IMG/VR virus record: IMGVR_UViG_3300020164_000232
Location: 1-31,443 of that record
DNA length: 31,443 bases
DNA from: a virus
Strand: one strand, 5' to 3'
Part shown: positions 6,961 through 25,352 of the stretch, piece by piece
Layout: each line of letters begins with the position of its first letter
Numbering within the stretch: the stretch's first letter is position 1
Notes under the pieces: generated by a model
Databases searched by the model: none
Seen by the model: the letters and a program-made list of their open reading frames with translations, nothing else
Told to the model about the DNA's origin: nothing
Position numbers and translations under genes: made by a program

Positions 6961-7750
6961 CCAGATCAAACCCGCAAACTCAATTTTCCCGCCCCAAAAA
7001 TTCTTGATTTATGGAGTTCCTGGAATTGGGAAAACGTCCTTTGCTGCCACCTTTGCCGCGCCGGTGCTGCTGCCGATCGAAGACGGCGCTTCAGCTGTCG
7101 ATATCCAGGCTTTCCCTATCGTTACCACATGGCAGCAGATTATTGACGCGATTCAGGCGCTGCATGGCGATCATCAGTTTAAAACACTGGTAATTGATTC
7201 TATGGACTGGCTGGAACCGATCATCTGGCGGGCGACCTGTGACCATTTCGGCAAGGAGTCAATAGAGTCGTTCGGTTACGGCAAGGGGTACATCGAGGTT
7301 GACCGCTGGTGGCGCCACCTGATGGCCGGGCTGGATTCGCTCCGCTTTTCAAAAGGGATGGATATAGTTCTGCTGGCACACAGTGAAATCAAAACTATAA
7401 CCCCGCCAGATACCGACAGTTACGACACCTATCAGCTGAAAATGCAGAAGCGGGCCTTCGCACTATGGGTGGAATGGGCTGAAACGGTCATGTTCCTTAA
7501 TTACAAGGTGATTATTAATAAGACCATTACCGGGATCAACCAGGAGCGGATCCGCGGGACAGGTACCGGGGACAGGATCATCTATACCGCTGAGCGTCCG
7601 TCTTATAAAGCAAAATCACGCTGGCCTCTGCCGGAAGAGATCATCATAGGTAAAGATAAGTCCTGGTCGGCATTCCACGAACACTTTTCCGCAGCAACCA
7701 ACGGTAAATACATCAACCCGGTACCACCCAAAAAGGAGAAAACAAAATGA
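6953..7750 (+). CDS. Phage RecA-fold ATPase (AAA_24, Sak4-like)
   Basis: A 265-residue protein from ATG 6953, with AAGGAGG upstream. Walker A is GVPGIGKTS (residues 21-29) and Walker B is TLVIDSMD (about 78-85, with D82). LLAHSEIK after these corresponds to the sensor region. This is the layout of phage nucleotide-binding proteins of the AAA_24 family, which includes the Sak4 recombinases, short RecA-like proteins that aid single-strand annealing together with an SSB. An SSB-like gene follows directly with an ATGA overlap, as usual for Sak4 modules. The enzyme probably binds ATP and ssDNA during phage recombination or replication. The general class is secure; Sak4 itself is inferred. Confidence 0.85.
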   Translation: MLDQIKPANSIFPPQKFLIYGVPGIGKTSFAATFAAPVLLPIEDGASAVDIQAFPIVTTWQQIIDAIQALHGDHQFKTLVIDSMDWLEPIIWRATCDHFGKESIESFGYGKGYIEVDRWWRHLMAGLDSLRFSKGMDIVLLAHSEIKTITPPDTDSYDTYQLKMQKRAFALWVEWAETVMFLNYKVIINKTITGINQERIRGTGTGDRIIYTAERPSYKAKSRWPLPEEIIIGKDKSWSAFHEHFSAATNGKYINPVPPKKEKTK

Positions 7751-11405: not shown

Positions 11406-12125
11406 ATGCTTGACTTTAACTCGCGGTCTGCACTGACAGACCGGCTGAATTATCTGATTGACAATGCAATTTCAGCTACCGCTGCCGAGTCTCAATCACG
11501 TAATTATCTGGGTGCATCTGTGATCGGTCACGTATGTGAGCGGCATGTCCAATTCCATTATATGGCGGCCATGGGCGAAGTGACCAGACCGATGCCAGCC
11601 CCTCGAATCCTGCGTATATTCGACCGTGGCAATATGTATGAAGAGCGCGTCAGGCAGTGGCTGAAGCAGGCCGGGTTCCTGTTTGGACGCACCAGTAAGG
11701 GCAAGAGTTTTTCCGACTTTGACGGACAGTTCTCCGGCCACGTTGACGGCGTCATAACAGGGTGGAAACAGCAGGGCGTCGTCTGTCCGGTCGAGCTGCC
11801 GGCACTATGGGAAAACAAATGTCTGGGTTCCAAGGGTTGGAAAAAACTGGAAGATGACAAATTGAAGAAATATTCTTCAACATACTTCGCGCAGGTACAG
11901 ATTTATATGTATTACCTCGGTCTGGAACGATGCCTGTTCACAGCGATCAATGCCGACACAATGGATATTTATCACGAACTGGTACCATATGACGTGTTTG
12001 AATGTGAGTTGTACCGTGCCAGGGTACAGGCGATCATGACAGGACAGGCTATGCAGAAGATCAGCAATGATCCTTCATATTATATCTGCAAGATGTGTGA
12101 TTTCATAGGTGCCTGCCATGCTTGA
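11406..12125 (+). CDS. Cas4-like PD-(D/E)XK exonuclease with probable Fe-S cluster
   Basis: A 239-residue protein with GGGGGAG before the ATG. The PD-(D/E)XK core is visible: GHVDG with D114, WENKC with E136 and K138, and the downstream QVQIYMYY with Q163 (the Q-x-x-x-Y motif of the RecB/Cas4 clade). Four cysteines, C44 near the N-terminus and C228, C231 and C237 at the C-terminus, are arranged exactly as in Cas4/AddB-type nucleases that hold a 4Fe-4S cluster. The likely activity is ssDNA or end-directed exonuclease action supplying recombination substrates. There is no CRISPR array, so a phage replication-recombination role is more likely. It overlaps the primase-helicase by 8 bp. Confidence 0.88.
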   Translation: MLDFNSRSALTDRLNYLIDNAISATAAESQSRNYLGASVIGHVCERHVQFHYMAAMGEVTRPMPAPRILRIFDRGNMYEERVRQWLKQAGFLFGRTSKGKSFSDFDGQFSGHVDGVITGWKQQGVVCPVELPALWENKCLGSKGWKKLEDDKLKKYSSTYFAQVQIYMYYLGLERCLFTAINADTMDIYHELVPYDVFECELYRARVQAIMTGQAMQKISNDPSYYICKMCDFIGACHA

Positions 12126-14115
12126 TTTTAACCAGTGGGGTGCTCCTCTTGATGAAAAACCGATAGACTTCCCTTCTATAAAAGCAATCTGCAATGCAAA
12201 TATCGAATTGATACTGCACCGATGGATGCCTGGCGGAAAGATCATCAGCGGAGAATATCTCTGCGGGACAATCCAGGGCGGGGCTGGTCAGTCATGCAGC
12301 ACCAACATATCAACCGGTGTCGGTTCCGATTTTGCCAGCGGGGAATCCTGGGGAGATATGATTGATCTGGTGGCACAGATTGAACAAGTATCTAATTCTG
12401 ACGCCGCAAGGATGTTATCTGATTTTCTCTGTATTACTCATGACACGCCTGTCCCGTCAGTATGTCCTGTTATATCCCCGGAATTGAAATATGAAGCTGG
12501 CAGACTGGCAGCTCTGGAATTGTGGCATTCAGGTGAAATATGCCCGCCTACGCACCCGTATTTGAGGAAAAAAGATGTAACTGCTGACTTAGGTATAAGA
12601 GTTCATCCGGAAACAGGGAATATTCTTATTCCTCTCCGGGACGAAAACGACGAGTTATGGAGTCTGCAAAGGATCAGTCCGGACGGTTCAGAAAAGAAAA
12701 TCACGTTCAATGGCAAGCTGACCGGTAATTTCTACGTTATCGGCGGTGAACGTGACACTGTGTTTATTTGCGAGGGGTATGCCACGGCAATGACTGTCGC
12801 GATAGCAACCGGTAAAACGTCAGTGATGGCGGTCAGCGCCGGCAACCTTGCCGCAGTGGGTGCTAAGATCAGCAAGATGTATCCTGCAGCTCGGCTGGTC
12901 TTTGCTGCTGATAATGACCAGGACAAAGAACTTAACCCAGGGGTTAAGGCTGCCAATGCTGCTGTTGCACATGTGGGCAGAGGTACGGTTATCGCTCCAC
13001 CGTTTCCAGCGGGGCAAAAAGGCGATTGGAACGACTATGCTCTGATTCATGGTGCTAAAGCAGTTAAGTCGCTGTTAGTGACGAAGGTCAAGCAGTTGTT
13101 TGTAGATGTGAACGATATGCAGAATTTAGAACCGGAATTTCTTATTGATGGAGTTATGGAAACTCCATGCACAGCTATGGTGTTCGGAGGATCCGGCACC
13201 GGTAAAAGTTTTTTTGTGATCGACATGGCTTTGCATGTTGCGTCCGGACAAAAATGGCTGAATAAAACCACACAGTCTGGGCCTGTTTTTTACATTTGCG
13301 GCGAAGGTCGTCACGGTATACCACGCAGGAAAAAGGCATGGGAAAAGCATCATGGATACCAGGTACCGTCAGGCAGGTTTATGGTGTCTCAATTGAGAAT
13401 GAGTTTTGAGCCGGAAGAAATGATGGAGATGGTTCACTGTATTGATAGTTGGGCTGATAATGTCGGAAAGCCTAAAATGATTATCATAGATACTATGGCT
13501 CGGGCGTTACCAGGTAATGCTGATGAGAACAGTGCCAAGGATACAAATCTTTTTTTTAACGAATGCGATCGCTTGCAGTCTCTTTACAATTGTGCGGTTG
13601 TAGTGGTTCACCACTCTGGGCATGGTGATTCAAAACGTGCTCGTGGATCGTCGGCTATCAAGGGTGTACTTGATGTGGAAATCATGTTGAATGGTGGCAT
13701 GATTGAGTGGACAAAAACCAAGGATATGGAACCGCATGCGCCAATCAGGTTCAGTCTTGATAAAGTATCGTATGGGGAAGGCAAGCGGGAAAACAGCTGC
13801 GTGGTGATGTACGATCTGAGCGTTGTAAAAGAGAAGAGGGAGACGGCCTCACAGAGTGCTGCCAAATCTTCACTTATTGAAGCTATCAGAAACGACAAAA
13901 TCAGTACTGACAGATGCACGTTTAATACCTGGAGAGACGCTTTTTATAGCAGATATCCGGGTATTTCAGAGCGCGGCCAACGCAAAGCGTTCAAAATTGT
14001 GCTCAACAGCATGTTCGACGATGGATCAGTGGTTAAAGACTGTGACTTCATAGTGATCAGTTCCGCAACGCTAAAAGAGCATATAACTAACGCATTGATG
14101 TTTAACAAGTTTTGA
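12118..14115 (+). CDS. Primase-helicase (Toprim plus RepA/AAA_25-like)
   Basis: A 665-residue protein from ATG 12118. The N-terminus (about residues 30-110) looks like a diverged zinc-binding or primase-associated domain. Toprim follows: FICEGYATA with E219 and AADND with D265 and D267. The C-terminal half is a RepA-like hexameric helicase: Walker A GGSGTGKS (357-364), Walker B MIIIDTMA (D458), and AVVVVHHSGH with ARGSSAIKG. Toprim plus RepA in one chain is standard for phages making their own primers and unwinding the fork. No DNA polymerase is present in the window, so the host enzyme is probably recruited. A dense cluster of palindromes follows its stop codon. Confidence 0.92.
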   Translation: MLDFNQWGAPLDEKPIDFPSIKAICNANIELILHRWMPGGKIISGEYLCGTIQGGAGQSCSTNISTGVGSDFASGESWGDMIDLVAQIEQVSNSDAARMLSDFLCITHDTPVPSVCPVISPELKYEAGRLAALELWHSGEICPPTHPYLRKKDVTADLGIRVHPETGNILIPLRDENDELWSLQRISPDGSEKKITFNGKLTGNFYVIGGERDTVFICEGYATAMTVAIATGKTSVMAVSAGNLAAVGAKISKMYPAARLVFAADNDQDKELNPGVKAANAAVAHVGRGTVIAPPFPAGQKGDWNDYALIHGAKAVKSLLVTKVKQLFVDVNDMQNLEPEFLIDGVMETPCTAMVFGGSGTGKSFFVIDMALHVASGQKWLNKTTQSGPVFYICGEGRHGIPRRKKAWEKHHGYQVPSGRFMVSQLRMSFEPEEMMEMVHCIDSWADNVGKPKMIIIDTMARALPGNADENSAKDTNLFFNECDRLQSLYNCAVVVVHHSGHGDSKRARGSSAIKGVLDVEIMLNGGMIEWTKTKDMEPHAPIRFSLDKVSYGEGKRENSCVVMYDLSVVKEKRETASQSAAKSSLIEAIRNDKISTDRCTFNTWRDAFYSRYPGISERGQRKAFKIVLNSMFDDGSVVKDCDFIVISSATLKEHITNALMFNKF

Positions 14116-14265
14116 TGTGCGGTACTTTTATAAAAGTTCCGGTTCCGGAACTAGTTCCGCATGCGGTACTGCGGTACTTAAGTGTAAAAGTTCCGCATAG
14201 TACCGGAAGTTCCGGTAGCGGAACTTTTGGTACTCTCCCCTTTAGGGGAGTACCAAAGTTCCTCC
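14116..14265. repeat. Nested palindrome and repeat cluster (candidate origin or control locus)
   Basis: The non-coding DNA directly after the primase stop is built from TTCCG/CGGAA (8 copies) and GGTAC/GTACC (6 copies). Perfect palindromes: ACTTTTATAAAAGT (14124-14137), GTTCCGGAAC (14142-14151), CGGAACTAGTTCCG (14146-14159), CCGCATGCGG (14157-14166). AAAAGTTCCGC (14186-14196) pairs exactly with 14218-14228 and encloses an inner 8+8 inverted repeat (14201-14217). A last hairpin has arms 14220-14240 and 14245-14262 with a TTTA loop. The remaining 14266-14357 shows only the ribosome binding site of the next gene. Iterons at a replication origin, an operator array or a structured RNA are possible. 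Confidence 0.8.
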
Positions 14266-14357
14266 AACTTTGCCGGTGACTGCTGTTGCAAAAATAACAC
14301 AATGAGAAACGCATCTGGCTGAACCAAAAATTATACAAAAAAGACAAGGAGGAAACT

Positions 14358-14537
14358 TTGAAAAATAAATTGATCGATTTGAACAATCATCTGTTCGCAC
14401 AACTGGAACGGCTCTCCGATGAAGAGACACAGGGCGAAGGGCTCAAGGAAGAAATTGAACGCTCGAGCGAACGGATTGACAGGGATGGCTATATTGAAAT
14501 GTCTGTGCCGGAACGGAACCCGATAGGATGGAGGTGA
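14358..14537 (+). CDS. Small phage protein with TTG start
   Basis: A perfect AAGGAGG lies 6 nt before TTG 14358; there is no better start. The 59-residue product ([20 protein letters not shown] at the start) matches the pattern of a very widespread tiny phage protein that begins M-K-N-x-L-x-D-L-N-N-x-L-F-x-x-L-E-R-L-x-D. Here the C-terminal part departs from that family after about residue 40. The function of the family is unknown to me. The stop is 1 bp before the Mor-like gene, and its last codons supply that gene's ribosome binding site (GGAGGTGAT). Confidence 0.7.
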
Positions 14538-14538
14538 T

Positions 14539-14841
14539 ATGAACGTAATCACAATGCGTTTTGAGTCGGCAGACGAGGTGATCAAAACTATCTGTCAGGA
14601 CGTGCCTGACGAGCATCACAAAACAATTGCAAACAACATCATTGATAACTTTTCGGGACGTGGGCTGTACTTCCCAAAGTCCCGCATGCGGTACGGTAAT
14701 CTGAGGGATGAGATGCTGGGGCGGTTCTTTGCCGGAGAGTCCCGGTCTGTTTTATGCCGGGAATACCACATCAGCCGCAGCCAGCTGCACCGGATCATCG
14801 TCCAGTATCATATCAGCCAACGTGTAAAATGTCGCATTTGA
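14539..14841 (+). CDS. Mor/C-like transcription activator
   Basis: A 100-residue protein. The second half (residues about 45-95) matches the DNA-binding part of the Mor family: YFPKSRMRYGNLRDEMLGRF, then FAGESRSVLCREYHISRSQL and a recognition helix around HRIIVQY. In Mu, Mor and C bind imperfect dyads upstream of middle and late promoters and recruit RNA polymerase. Exactly such a dyad (14830-14857) begins inside the end of this gene and is repeated at 21733-21760, both ahead of late genes. The protein is therefore the likely late activator of this phage. The N-terminal part would carry the dimerisation domain. The ribosome binding site is GGAGGTGAT, 3 nt before ATG. Confidence 0.78.
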   Translation: MNVITMRFESADEVIKTICQDVPDEHHKTIANNIIDNFSGRGLYFPKSRMRYGNLRDEMLGRFFAGESRSVLCREYHISRSQLHRIIVQYHISQRVKCRI

Positions 14842-14880
14842 GCATAGAAATGACACATTGATCTGTGGAATAGTGGCAGC
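14830..14880 (+). promoter_or_regulatory. Late promoter element, copy 1 (dyad plus extended -10)
   Basis: The dyad arms TGTCGCATTT (14830-14839) and AAATGACACA (14848-14857) are imperfect inverted repeats (8 of 10 positions) 8 bp apart. Six positions on is the conserved block CTGTGGAATAGTG (14863-14875), which includes TGG-AATAGT, a plausible extended -10. The same parts with the same spacing recur at 21733. It lies before the terminase genes and directly after the Mor-like activator. Confidence 0.72.
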
Positions 14881-14923
14881 ATGAAAAACCATAAAATTAA
14901 AAAGCAAATACTTTAGGTGCTTT

Positions 14924-15187
14924 ATGGCTAACCCAAATATCGGACAACACGCAGCTGCTGGCGGGAAAGCAAAGGCGGCCAAGCGGCATGCGCTGACTGT
15001 TGACTTCCTGACTGATCTGCGAAAGGCGTATCAGGAACTTGGCGGAATTGAAGGTTTGGTCACGTTCGGCAAGAAAAACCCGGTTGAGTTTTACAAGATT
15101 ATGGCCAAAACTCTGCCGAAAGACATGAACGTGAGCGTATCAATGCTTGAGCCGATGGTGGTCGTCCTTGCAAATGACGCTGACTAA
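14924..15187 (+). CDS. Terminase small-subunit-like protein
   Basis: An 87-residue protein with AGGTG before ATG. The pattern LRKAYQELGGIEGLVTFGKKNP...FYKIMAKTLPKDM is typical of the small proteins encoded immediately before large terminases in many proteobacterial phages, with the conserved G-G-x-E-x-L, N-P-x-x-F-Y and L-P-K elements. It is shorter than classical TerS and a basic N-terminus replaces a clear HTH. It presumably recognises packaging DNA or helps load TerL. It overlaps the large subunit gene by 14 bp and is the first gene after late promoter copy 1. Confidence 0.72.
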   Translation: MANPNIGQHAAAGGKAKAAKRHALTVDFLTDLRKAYQELGGIEGLVTFGKKNPVEFYKIMAKTLPKDMNVSVSMLEPMVVVLANDAD

Positions 15188-16388
15188 AGCACAAAGCAGG
15201 ATCTTCCGTGACGACAGCCGGTTCAAGGTCGTGGTTGCCGGACGGCGCTTTGGTAAAACCGTGTTGGCGCTCTGTACATTGCTCTACAAAGCCAGCCTGA
15301 AGCCGAATGCTATTTGCTGGTACACAGCTCCGACATACAGACAGGCAAAACAGATATCCTGGTCGATGCTGCAGAAGATGGCGCCGGCCGACCATATCGT
15401 CGGGAAGAACGAAACAGATTTGAGCATGACATTCCGCAATGGGTCAACGATCTCATTGCGGGGTGCTGACAATTACGATTCATTGCGAGGAGTGGGCCTG
15501 GATGCCCTTGTGCTTGACGAATACGCTGACATGGCGGCTGAGGTATGGACTGAGGTGTTACGACCAGCCCTGTCCGATAAACAAGGGACTGCGATGTTCA
15601 TCGGGACTCCGGCCGGTTACAACCACCTCTATGACCTTTGGATAGAGGCTGACAACAAGCCCGGATGGAAAGCGTGGCAGTTTACCACAGCAGATGGCGG
15701 CAATGTCCCCCCGGAAGAATTGGAAGCGGCACGGCTTGATCTTGATTCCAGAACGTTCCAACAGGAATATGAAGCGTGCTTTTCCAGCCTGACAGGTCGT
15801 GTTTACTACGAGTTTGACAGGCTGCTGAACGTGTCGGCTGATGTCCAGGATACCGGGGCGGAGTTGCTTGTCGGCATGGATTTCAACATCAACCCGATGA
15901 GCGCGGTGGTTGGGGTTAAAGCCGGGAACCAGCTACACATCATCGATGAGATTACGATCCAGAATGGCAATACAGAGCTGCTGTCTGAGTCGATCATGAC
16001 CAGGTACCCGAAACGGAGGGTAAAAGTCTATCCGGATCCATCAGGTAAGGCGCGGAAGACCAGCGCTCCGGTAGGGCAGACGGATTTCAGCATTCTGGCA
16101 TCTCATGGTTTTATCGTGCTGGCGCCGAACAGCGCACCTCTGGTTGTAGATCGGAATAACGAAGTCAACGCCATGCTGAAGAATGCATACGGTGACAGGC
16201 GATTGCTGATACATCCGAAATGCAAGCAGCTTATCAAGTGCCTGGACGGATTGACATACAAAGCGGATACGTCACAGCCTGACAAGGGGCTGGGACTCGA
16301 TCATTTACCCGACGCACTGAGTTATCTTGTACATTACGAATACCCGCTTGTCAGGCGCACCGCAACAACAACGGACATGTTCCAATAA
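15174..16388 (+). CDS. terL: Terminase large subunit
   Basis: A 404-residue protein. ATPase: Walker A GRRFGKT (23-29), Walker B LVLDEYAD with D115 and E116, and a coupling motif around FIGTPAGYN. Nuclease: MDFN with D236 and DHLPDAL (D376, D380) supplying metal-binding acids. This is the motor and headful or site-specific nuclease that packages DNA through the portal. I chose ATG 15174, which overlaps the small-subunit stop. The frame is open upstream to 15147, but the family pattern (KAQSRIFRDDSRFKVVVAGRR) starts here. The portal gene follows after a 38-bp gap. Confidence 0.95.
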   Translation: MTLTKAQSRIFRDDSRFKVVVAGRRFGKTVLALCTLLYKASLKPNAICWYTAPTYRQAKQISWSMLQKMAPADHIVGKNETDLSMTFRNGSTISLRGADNYDSLRGVGLDALVLDEYADMAAEVWTEVLRPALSDKQGTAMFIGTPAGYNHLYDLWIEADNKPGWKAWQFTTADGGNVPPEELEAARLDLDSRTFQQEYEACFSSLTGRVYYEFDRLLNVSADVQDTGAELLVGMDFNINPMSAVVGVKAGNQLHIIDEITIQNGNTELLSESIMTRYPKRRVKVYPDPSGKARKTSAPVGQTDFSILASHGFIVLAPNSAPLVVDRNNEVNAMLKNAYGDRRLLIHPKCKQLIKCLDGLTYKADTSQPDKGLGLDHLPDALSYLVHYEYPLVRRTATTTDMFQ

Positions 16389-24953: not shown

Positions 24954-25352
24954 ATGGCACTCGGTTCATTCACCATAGCGCTGGACTCGTTCCAGATTAA
25001 AACAGAGCGGCAGCTTGTCAATGTCTGCCAGAAGATAGCGATGGAAGCGTTCAAGGGGGTCATACTTAAAAGCCCGGTGGACACCGGCAGGTTCCGCGCA
25101 AACTGGGGTTGTTCGGTAGGCACACCGTATGCCGGATATGACGTTAATGCGTTCGATAAATCCGGTTCCGGTTCTATGGCAAAAGCTATGCAGGTTGTGA
25201 ACGGATGGAAAGCCAGAATCAACATATCACTTGTGAATAATCTGCCATACAGTCTCCCGCTTGAGTACGGCCACAGCAAGCAGGCGCCTTCGGGGATGGT
25301 CCGGTTGACCCTCACCGAAATGGGCGGGATAGCTACTGGCGGGCAGATTTAA
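24954..25352 (+). CDS. Neck / tail-completion protein (HK97 gp10-like)
   Basis: A 132-residue protein. SPVDTGRFRANW (residues about 40-51) and NNLPYSLPLEYGHSKQAPSGMVRLT (about 89-113, split here as PYSLPLEYGHSKQ then APSGMVRLT) are the signature of HK97 gp10-like proteins, which complete the head-tail joint. There is no intergenic space with the upstream gene. Its last 20 bp overlap the end of a leftward gene. It has an ordinary length for the family. Confidence 0.85.
   Translation: MALGSFTIALDSFQIKTERQLVNVCQKIAMEAFKGVILKSPVDTGRFRANWGCSVGTPYAGYDVNAFDKSGSGSMAKAMQVVNGWKARINISLVNNLPYSLPLEYGHSKQAPSGMVRLTLTEMGGIATGGQI

Follow-up and report, generated by a model that had tools for sequence, protein, structure and literature searches.

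Organisation of the locus

The window, i.e., the whole stretch of viral DNA analysed here (31,443 nt), has Pfam-recognised genes for terminase, Mu F-like and tail tube proteins, together with one for a primase-helicase, directly behind which lies a compact array of short repeats that ends in a hairpin (Table 1).

Table 1. Positions of the features at the primase-helicase locus, numbered along the window.
Feature	Position	Strand	Description
Primase-helicase gene	12109–14115	+	668 aa; GTG start at 12109, in-frame ATG at 12118
C-terminal winged-helix domain, coding part	13810–14112	+	Residues 568–668; proposed reader of the array
Modelled recognition helix, codons	13969–14022	+	Residues 621–638, ERGQRKAFKIVLNSMFDD
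Array, left half	14120–14178		Six AGTWCC(G) units, both strands
AT-rich gap between the half-arrays	14179–14188		TAAGTGTAAA; 10 bp
Array, right half	14189–14262		Seven AGTWCC units, both strands, those inside the hairpin included
5′-bulged hairpin	14226–14257	+	Outer stem 14226–14232/14251–14257, 7 bp, built from the motif
Hairpin, bulge	14233–14234		CT
Hairpin, inner stem	14235–14240/14245–14250		CTCCCC/GGGGAG
Hairpin, loop	14241–14244		TTTA
AT-rich block behind the array	14282–14338		21-nt imperfect repeat, 14282–14302 and 14318–14338
Mor-family activator gene	14539–14841	+	Next Pfam-recognised gene after the array; not kept beside the array in relatives

Pfam, a structure match and modelling divide the primase-helicase into a Toprim primase, a RepA-like RecA-fold helicase and a C-terminal winged helix. 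The Pfam matches were Toprim_3 (4e-11) and AAA_25 (1.6e-34), the P4/TraC-type Toprim motif CEGYATA is present in the sequence, and the helicase part matched the structure of RSF1010 RepA (1g8y, E 2.2e-5). No match to D5_N or DUF927 was found in this protein, the helicase being an AAA_25 RecA-fold of RepA-like type. The C-terminal domain of about 100 residues was modelled by AlphaFold2 with a mean pLDDT of 78.4 in the order helix-strand-helix-helix-strand-strand-helix, and among its nearest solved folds are the MukF, ORC1 and Cdc6 winged helices (Z 8.3–9.9), a likeness that by itself is no proof of function.

A small ORF behind the array has 97 bp (14359–14455) in common with many Vibrio phage records at 77% identity and was, among the matches listed in a nucleotide search of phage records, the only region matched within 12109–16109. 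The closest cellular contigs were metagenome-assembled Deltaproteobacteria/Desulfuromonadaceae, plus one from Chlorobiaceae, from which the host of the window virus can only be guessed.

Repeat array in the window

Thirteen copies of AGTWCC(G), where W is T or A, occur on both strands at 14120–14262, behind the stop codon of the primase-helicase gene, and a fourteenth is found at 14059 inside the coding region. AGTWCCG was counted 17 times in the window, compared with a mean of 4.9 and a maximum of 10 in 100 shuffles (a 3.5-fold excess), and 11 of the 17 copies fall in 14059–14225. The first-pass annotation, which had been made from the sequence alone, had described the region as built of two motifs, TTCCG and GGTAC; the repetition was found to be real, but both motifs belong to one unit, AGTWCC(G), read on either strand. 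All four of its perfect palindromes (14124–14137, 14 bp; 14142–14151, 10 bp; 14146–14159, 14 bp; 14157–14166, 10 bp) and its 11-bp perfect inverted repeat (14186–14196/14218–14228) were recovered, and no other 150-bp stretch contains more than four of the 34 palindromes of at least 10 bp in the window. The large hairpin was likewise present, its bounds being better drawn as in Table 1 than at 14220–14262. Folding z-scores of the region were −5.9 for the plus strand and −7.8 for the minus strand, with 0 of 200 shuffles equally stable.

The AT-rich gap between the half-arrays is a possible melting site, inferred in the absence of melting data, and the AT-rich block behind the array, of which TTGCAAAAATAACACA was found at the same place in close relatives, is inferred to be a possible unwinding element or promoter. 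No DnaA box lies at the window array, the sole TTWTNCACA of the window being at 25232.

Recurrence behind homologous genes

Six viral contigs, the primase-helicases of which are 58–60% identical to that of the window, revealed the same layout at the same place but with another repeat unit (GACACA, GACACG, GCACG or GTTCG); a hairpin with a CTTTAG apex is common to all six. In locus L009, an insert of ~400–500 bp (around 7085–7600) with an apparent reverse-strand reading frame divides the array, with the hairpin half beyond the insert.

For a test of position, the 250 bp behind each homologous gene were compared with controls for an over-represented hexamer in the window's own family (fam1), in a larger family about 30% identical to the window protein (fam2) and in a most distant set. 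An array was found behind the gene in 65 of 85 fam2 loci, 5 of 11 fam1 loci and 19 of 63 loci of the most distant set, and upstream of the same genes in 4, 0 and 2, respectively; other gene ends gave 17 of 300. Most fam1 arrays failing the strict count test were still visible by eye. The lack of such an array behind some homologs, as in the most distant set, where only 19 of 63 have one, speaks against the interpretation as an origin developed below. Hairpins bearing the apex were detected in 41/85 fam2 and 5/11 fam1 regions versus 2/430 controls, and TTATNCACA boxes in 26/85 fam2 regions versus 8/430 control gene ends. Some of these fam2 loci had been fetched via the hairpin pattern; among 67 fetched by protein only, the hairpin (stem of at least 5) was present in 36 and an exact TTATCCACA within 250 bp in 25. 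Perfect DnaA boxes (TTATCCACA) flank the array in fam2 on one side or on both (e.g., L329, L330, L345, L353 and L360), suggesting from their sequence and placement that host DnaA participates in those phages.

In the converse search, where 240 loci were fetched by hairpin 14-mers alone, a homologous gene ended 77–226 bp upstream on the same strand in 19 loci, was in reverse orientation in 4 and lay elsewhere in 6. Most hits of the hairpin pattern, with no homologous gene found alongside, were probably chance 14-mers.

Arrays were also observed behind more distant homologs, among them those of four isolates: Idiomarinaceae phage 1N2-2 (array near 34.2 kb), Alteromonas phages XX1924 (near 24.3 kb) and PB15 (near 19.8 kb) and Salicola phage CGphi29 (near 7.1 kb). 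Each of the four genomes has a single concentration of its array hexamer, at 6–13 copies in 250 bp, with at most two in any other stretch. Spelling varies by lineage and includes GGAAC, GGTAAC, GGGTCA, AGGGGG, GGTACA and others. Inspection of GC skew, which the first-pass annotation had recommended as a check, revealed no switch at the array, either in the window or in any of the four isolates, an outcome that is not decisive but counts, like the lack of a DnaA box in the window array, against the reading as an origin; in three isolates the skew minimum is ~2–3 kb away from the array, close to where gene direction changes.

Departures from the common layout were seen as well. Three loci (L018, L113 and L065) have the Toprim N-terminus swapped for a different part, PrimPol-like by eye, and retain helicase, winged helix, array and hairpin, which suggests that the constant partners are the helicase and the winged helix. 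In L042, L053 and L055, a GATTGC/GCAAAC array behind a helicase-like gene apparently falls within the next gene's reading frame and is followed by a similar bulged hairpin on the opposite strand. Two loci (L168 and L198) carry arrays of TTTCAC and ACATTT type upstream of the primase gene, not downstream. One fam2 subgroup (L382, L385, L388, L399, L376, L398 and L405), in which the C-terminal helix differs, lacks an array directly behind the gene and may have its origin at another site.

Coupling of repeat spelling to the winged helix

Analysis of 66 distinct fam2 members revealed that repeat similarity tracks the C-terminal domain once the core is controlled for (partial Spearman 0.29, permutation p 0.001), the reciprocal value for the core, given the C-terminal domain, being −0.15. 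At core identities of 85–95%, repeat similarity was 0.52 where the C-terminal domains were at least 60% identical versus 0.08 where they were 40–60% identical. The 25 columns most informative on repeat class all fall in the C-terminal region, which accounts for 80 of the 388 columns tested, and over 67 rows the repeat class changed at least 32 times on a tree built without the C-terminal part versus 20 times on the tree of that part.

Single positions could be singled out. V/Q634 (L345 numbering) was the sole protein column splitting GGAAC from GGTAAC arrays (9/9 versus 11/11; 20 arrays). Four columns distinguish GGGTCA from AGGGGG arrays; none lies outside the C-terminal domain, and three are within or adjacent to the helix of V/Q634. 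L345 and L353, with three residue differences in the displayed C-terminal domain, have arrays that align site by site, where GGAAC falls from 7 copies to 0 and GGTAAC rises from 1 to 6 with the flanking DnaA boxes conserved. The residues linked to specificity in fam2 map to the helix matching window residues 621–638. In the fam2 model (mean pLDDT 74.6), residue 634 lies within domain helix 63–69, i.e., at the position of a recognition helix. Since individual matches of the fam2 domain to solved folds were weak (best Foldseek E 0.07, best Z 7.0), it is called only winged-helix-like; comparison of its sequence profile with PDB sequences gave no convincing relative.

Four rules linking helix pattern to repeat were formulated, with one exception (L028) over 67 rows. 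For GGTAAC, the repeat and its helix pattern, A[KR]Q[YM], switched jointly in all 8 phylogenetically independent pairs (p 0.008); the remaining three rules agreed in every independent pair, the pairs being too few for significance. Because the rules had been chosen after seeing the first data set, they were applied to 69 new distinct loci, 48 of which carry a rule, and the predicted repeat was found in 45 of the 48. One of the three misses has no array; the other two (L512 and L517) are pattern matches outside the helix and were still counted as misses. As the new loci are related to the first set, this result is a replication and not fully independent.

We conclude, from covariation in sequence and without binding data, that repeat spelling follows the C-terminal winged helix and not the rest of the protein. 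Co-inheritance accounts for part of the coupling, because the array and the C-terminal codons adjoin; it leaves the single-residue switches unexplained. The recognition code was derived in fam2, and the window's own spelling has no close pair with which the code could be tested; for fam1, the argument consists of shared anatomy and position together with the winged-helix model.

These data also bear on the idea that the array is a regulatory operator through which Mor, or the initiator acting as repressor, controls downstream genes. The Mor gene begins ~280 bp downstream of the array, some close relatives have a promoter-like TTGCAA...TATAAT block behind the array, and initiators often autoregulate; yet the repeats track the primase-helicase while the downstream gene differs between relatives, the array lies 3′ of the very gene whose product tracks it, and DnaA boxes stand beside many fam2 arrays. 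We consider an operator very improbable. A Mor operator in particular, which the first-pass annotation had left as an alternative, is disfavoured because relatives keep the array while the next gene is replaced.

The bulged hairpin

Across both families, the 5′ arm of the hairpin carries a bulge of 1–3 nt in 44 of 44 distinct hairpins (2 nt, n = 30; 1 nt, n = 13; 3 nt, n = 1). Placing the bulge on the 5′ arm always gave the best pairing, with a mean of 11.3 pairs versus 7.3 for a 3′ bulge and 6.7 for no bulge. Stem sequences differ among the 44 hairpins with pairing preserved; as entry to the set required an inner stem of at least 5 pairs, the inner pairing was partly selected for, the side of the bulge being unselected. 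Read in the sense of the gene, the loop is TTTA, TATA or TTAA and never TAAA in both main families, and a few more distant loci have a TTTA hairpin on the strand opposite to the upstream gene. Polarity and bulge, as conserved in these sequences, argue for recognition as a folded single strand. Its role as a priming or loading signal is inferred.

The strong folding of the region and the fact that, in both main families, the sense strand conserves the hairpin's polarity, its loop and its 5′ bulge would also be compatible with hairpin and array acting as RNA in the primase transcript, be it as terminator, translational element or stability element. No T-run follows the hairpin, a terminator and promoter scan gave nothing at it, and no Rfam match was obtained for 13900–14500. 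A terminator, as had been suggested earlier, is disfavoured since the T-run is lacking and the conserved features are a bulge and a loop beside an array. Repeats on both strands, with irregular spacing and tracking the winged helix, moreover resemble DNA sites, and the opposite-strand hairpins of the distant loci do not fit a sense transcript. We regard an RNA element as very improbable for the region as a whole; the earlier suggestion of a structured RNA, with no support from Rfam, is not fully excluded for the hairpin, as the data do not separate its acting as DNA from its acting as RNA.

A packaging (pac/cos) or partition site, for which the start of the terminase genes ~1 kb downstream in the window might be cited, is hardly tenable, given that the small terminase gene of XX1924 and PB15 lies >5 kb from the array and that the repeat follows the C-terminus of the primase-helicase.

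Interpretation as a probable replication origin

We consider it highly probable that the region is the replication origin of the phage and that its iterons are bound, through the winged helix, by the initiator primase-helicase encoded upstream, although neither binding nor replication data are available. The first-pass proposal of origin iterons behind the primase-helicase is strongly supported by the recurrence of the array behind homologs, by a spelling that follows the winged helix and by the DnaA boxes flanking many fam2 arrays. Comparison shows that array and hairpin are present and keep their position, that spelling is coupled to the winged helix, and that the bulge is conserved.

The steps of initiation are inferred. 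Many copies of the primase-helicase would bind the 13 iterons via the C-terminal winged helix, by which the RepA-type helicase would be gathered and loaded on the 3′ flank of its own gene. The adjacent AT-rich DNA would then be opened and primed by the fused Toprim domain. The 5′-bulged TTTA hairpin would make the origin strand-polar, most likely by marking, when folded as a single strand, the site of primase or helicase action, its exact job being likewise an inference.

Comparison with known origins

In SaPI Rep and SCC Cch2, the C-terminal domain binds iterons directly 3′ of its own gene (PMC7581432), and PICI origins are described as two iteron sets around an AT-rich stretch, where gene plus origin maintain a plasmid (PMC6092414). 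The window shares the array directly 3′ of an initiator helicase gene; its two half-arrays with the 10-bp AT-rich gap may, in the absence of melting data, be a counterpart of the two iteron sets. That the C-terminal domain sets iteron specificity is supported by covariation, mainly in fam2, without binding data. It differs in that the SaPI/SCC helicases are of D5_N or DUF927 type whereas that of the phage is a RepA-like RecA-fold. SaPIs and PICIs are, in addition, satellites needing structural genes of a helper phage, whereas the window encodes its own terminase and head-tail proteins. The window array also ends in a constant 5′-bulged hairpin, of which no description for SaPIs was found in the text consulted.

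The alpha protein of P4 unites a Toprim primase with the motif EGYATA, a helicase and a winged helix binding repeats in a single protein (PMC4234260). The window protein matches it in the Toprim domain (CEGYATA, Toprim_3). The helicase of alpha is of SF3 type, a domain that the window protein does not have, and in the window a single compact array is placed at the gene's 3′ end. Because its helicase is of RepA type, the window origin was not filed as a member of either the SaPI/PICI or the P4 group.

At RSF1010 oriV, which uses RepA, RepB′ and RepC, a RepA-type helicase is combined with iterons and with stem-loops used by a dedicated primase (PMC4234260). The hexameric RepA-type helicase is common to both systems, but RepC and RepB′ are separate proteins in RSF1010 whereas primase and winged helix are fused to the helicase in the window, where one protein appears to do the jobs of RepA, RepB′ and RepC; RSF1010 also has the pair ssiA/ssiB where the window has one hairpin. 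Another close system is the stem-loop origin of plasmid pRN1 and phage BIP-1. An essential stem-loop lies in pRN1 directly 3′ of a primase-helicase gene with a C-terminal winged helix (PMC4234260), but with PrimPol and SF3 domains, a stem-loop of roughly 100 nt and no iterons. DnaA-assisted origins are matched by many fam2 arrays, which have DnaA boxes beside them, but not by the window. By analogy with these systems, the best reading is that the origin would work like SaPI/PICI and P4 origins but with an unrelated RepA-type helicase, i.e., as a variant and not as a member.

Significance

Beyond the window, the data may point to a widespread and apparently undescribed type of tailed-phage origin, where a swappable cassette of winged helix and iterons occupies the 3′ end of a RepA-type primase-helicase gene, where the address is changed by single substitutions in the recognition helix with nearly all iterons changing to match, and where a strand-polar, 5′-bulged TTTA hairpin is a single-strand signal for priming or helicase loading. 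This generalisation is tentative, our doubt slightly outweighing our confidence. No earlier description of such an origin was found in the open-access literature; description elsewhere is not excluded.

If it is true, origin specificity would be seen evolving residue by residue in nature. As every phage supplies a single recognition helix along with roughly a dozen cognate sites, the co-change of initiator and iterons without loss of function, and the reading of bases by residues, would become testable. RepA-type helicases would be added, as a class, to the initiators whose own gene bears the origin at its 3′ end, and the invariant bulged hairpin would be a new structural lead for strand-specific priming. 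Replication incompatibility groups of phages, and the origins open to mimicry by satellites, would become predictable from sequence alone.
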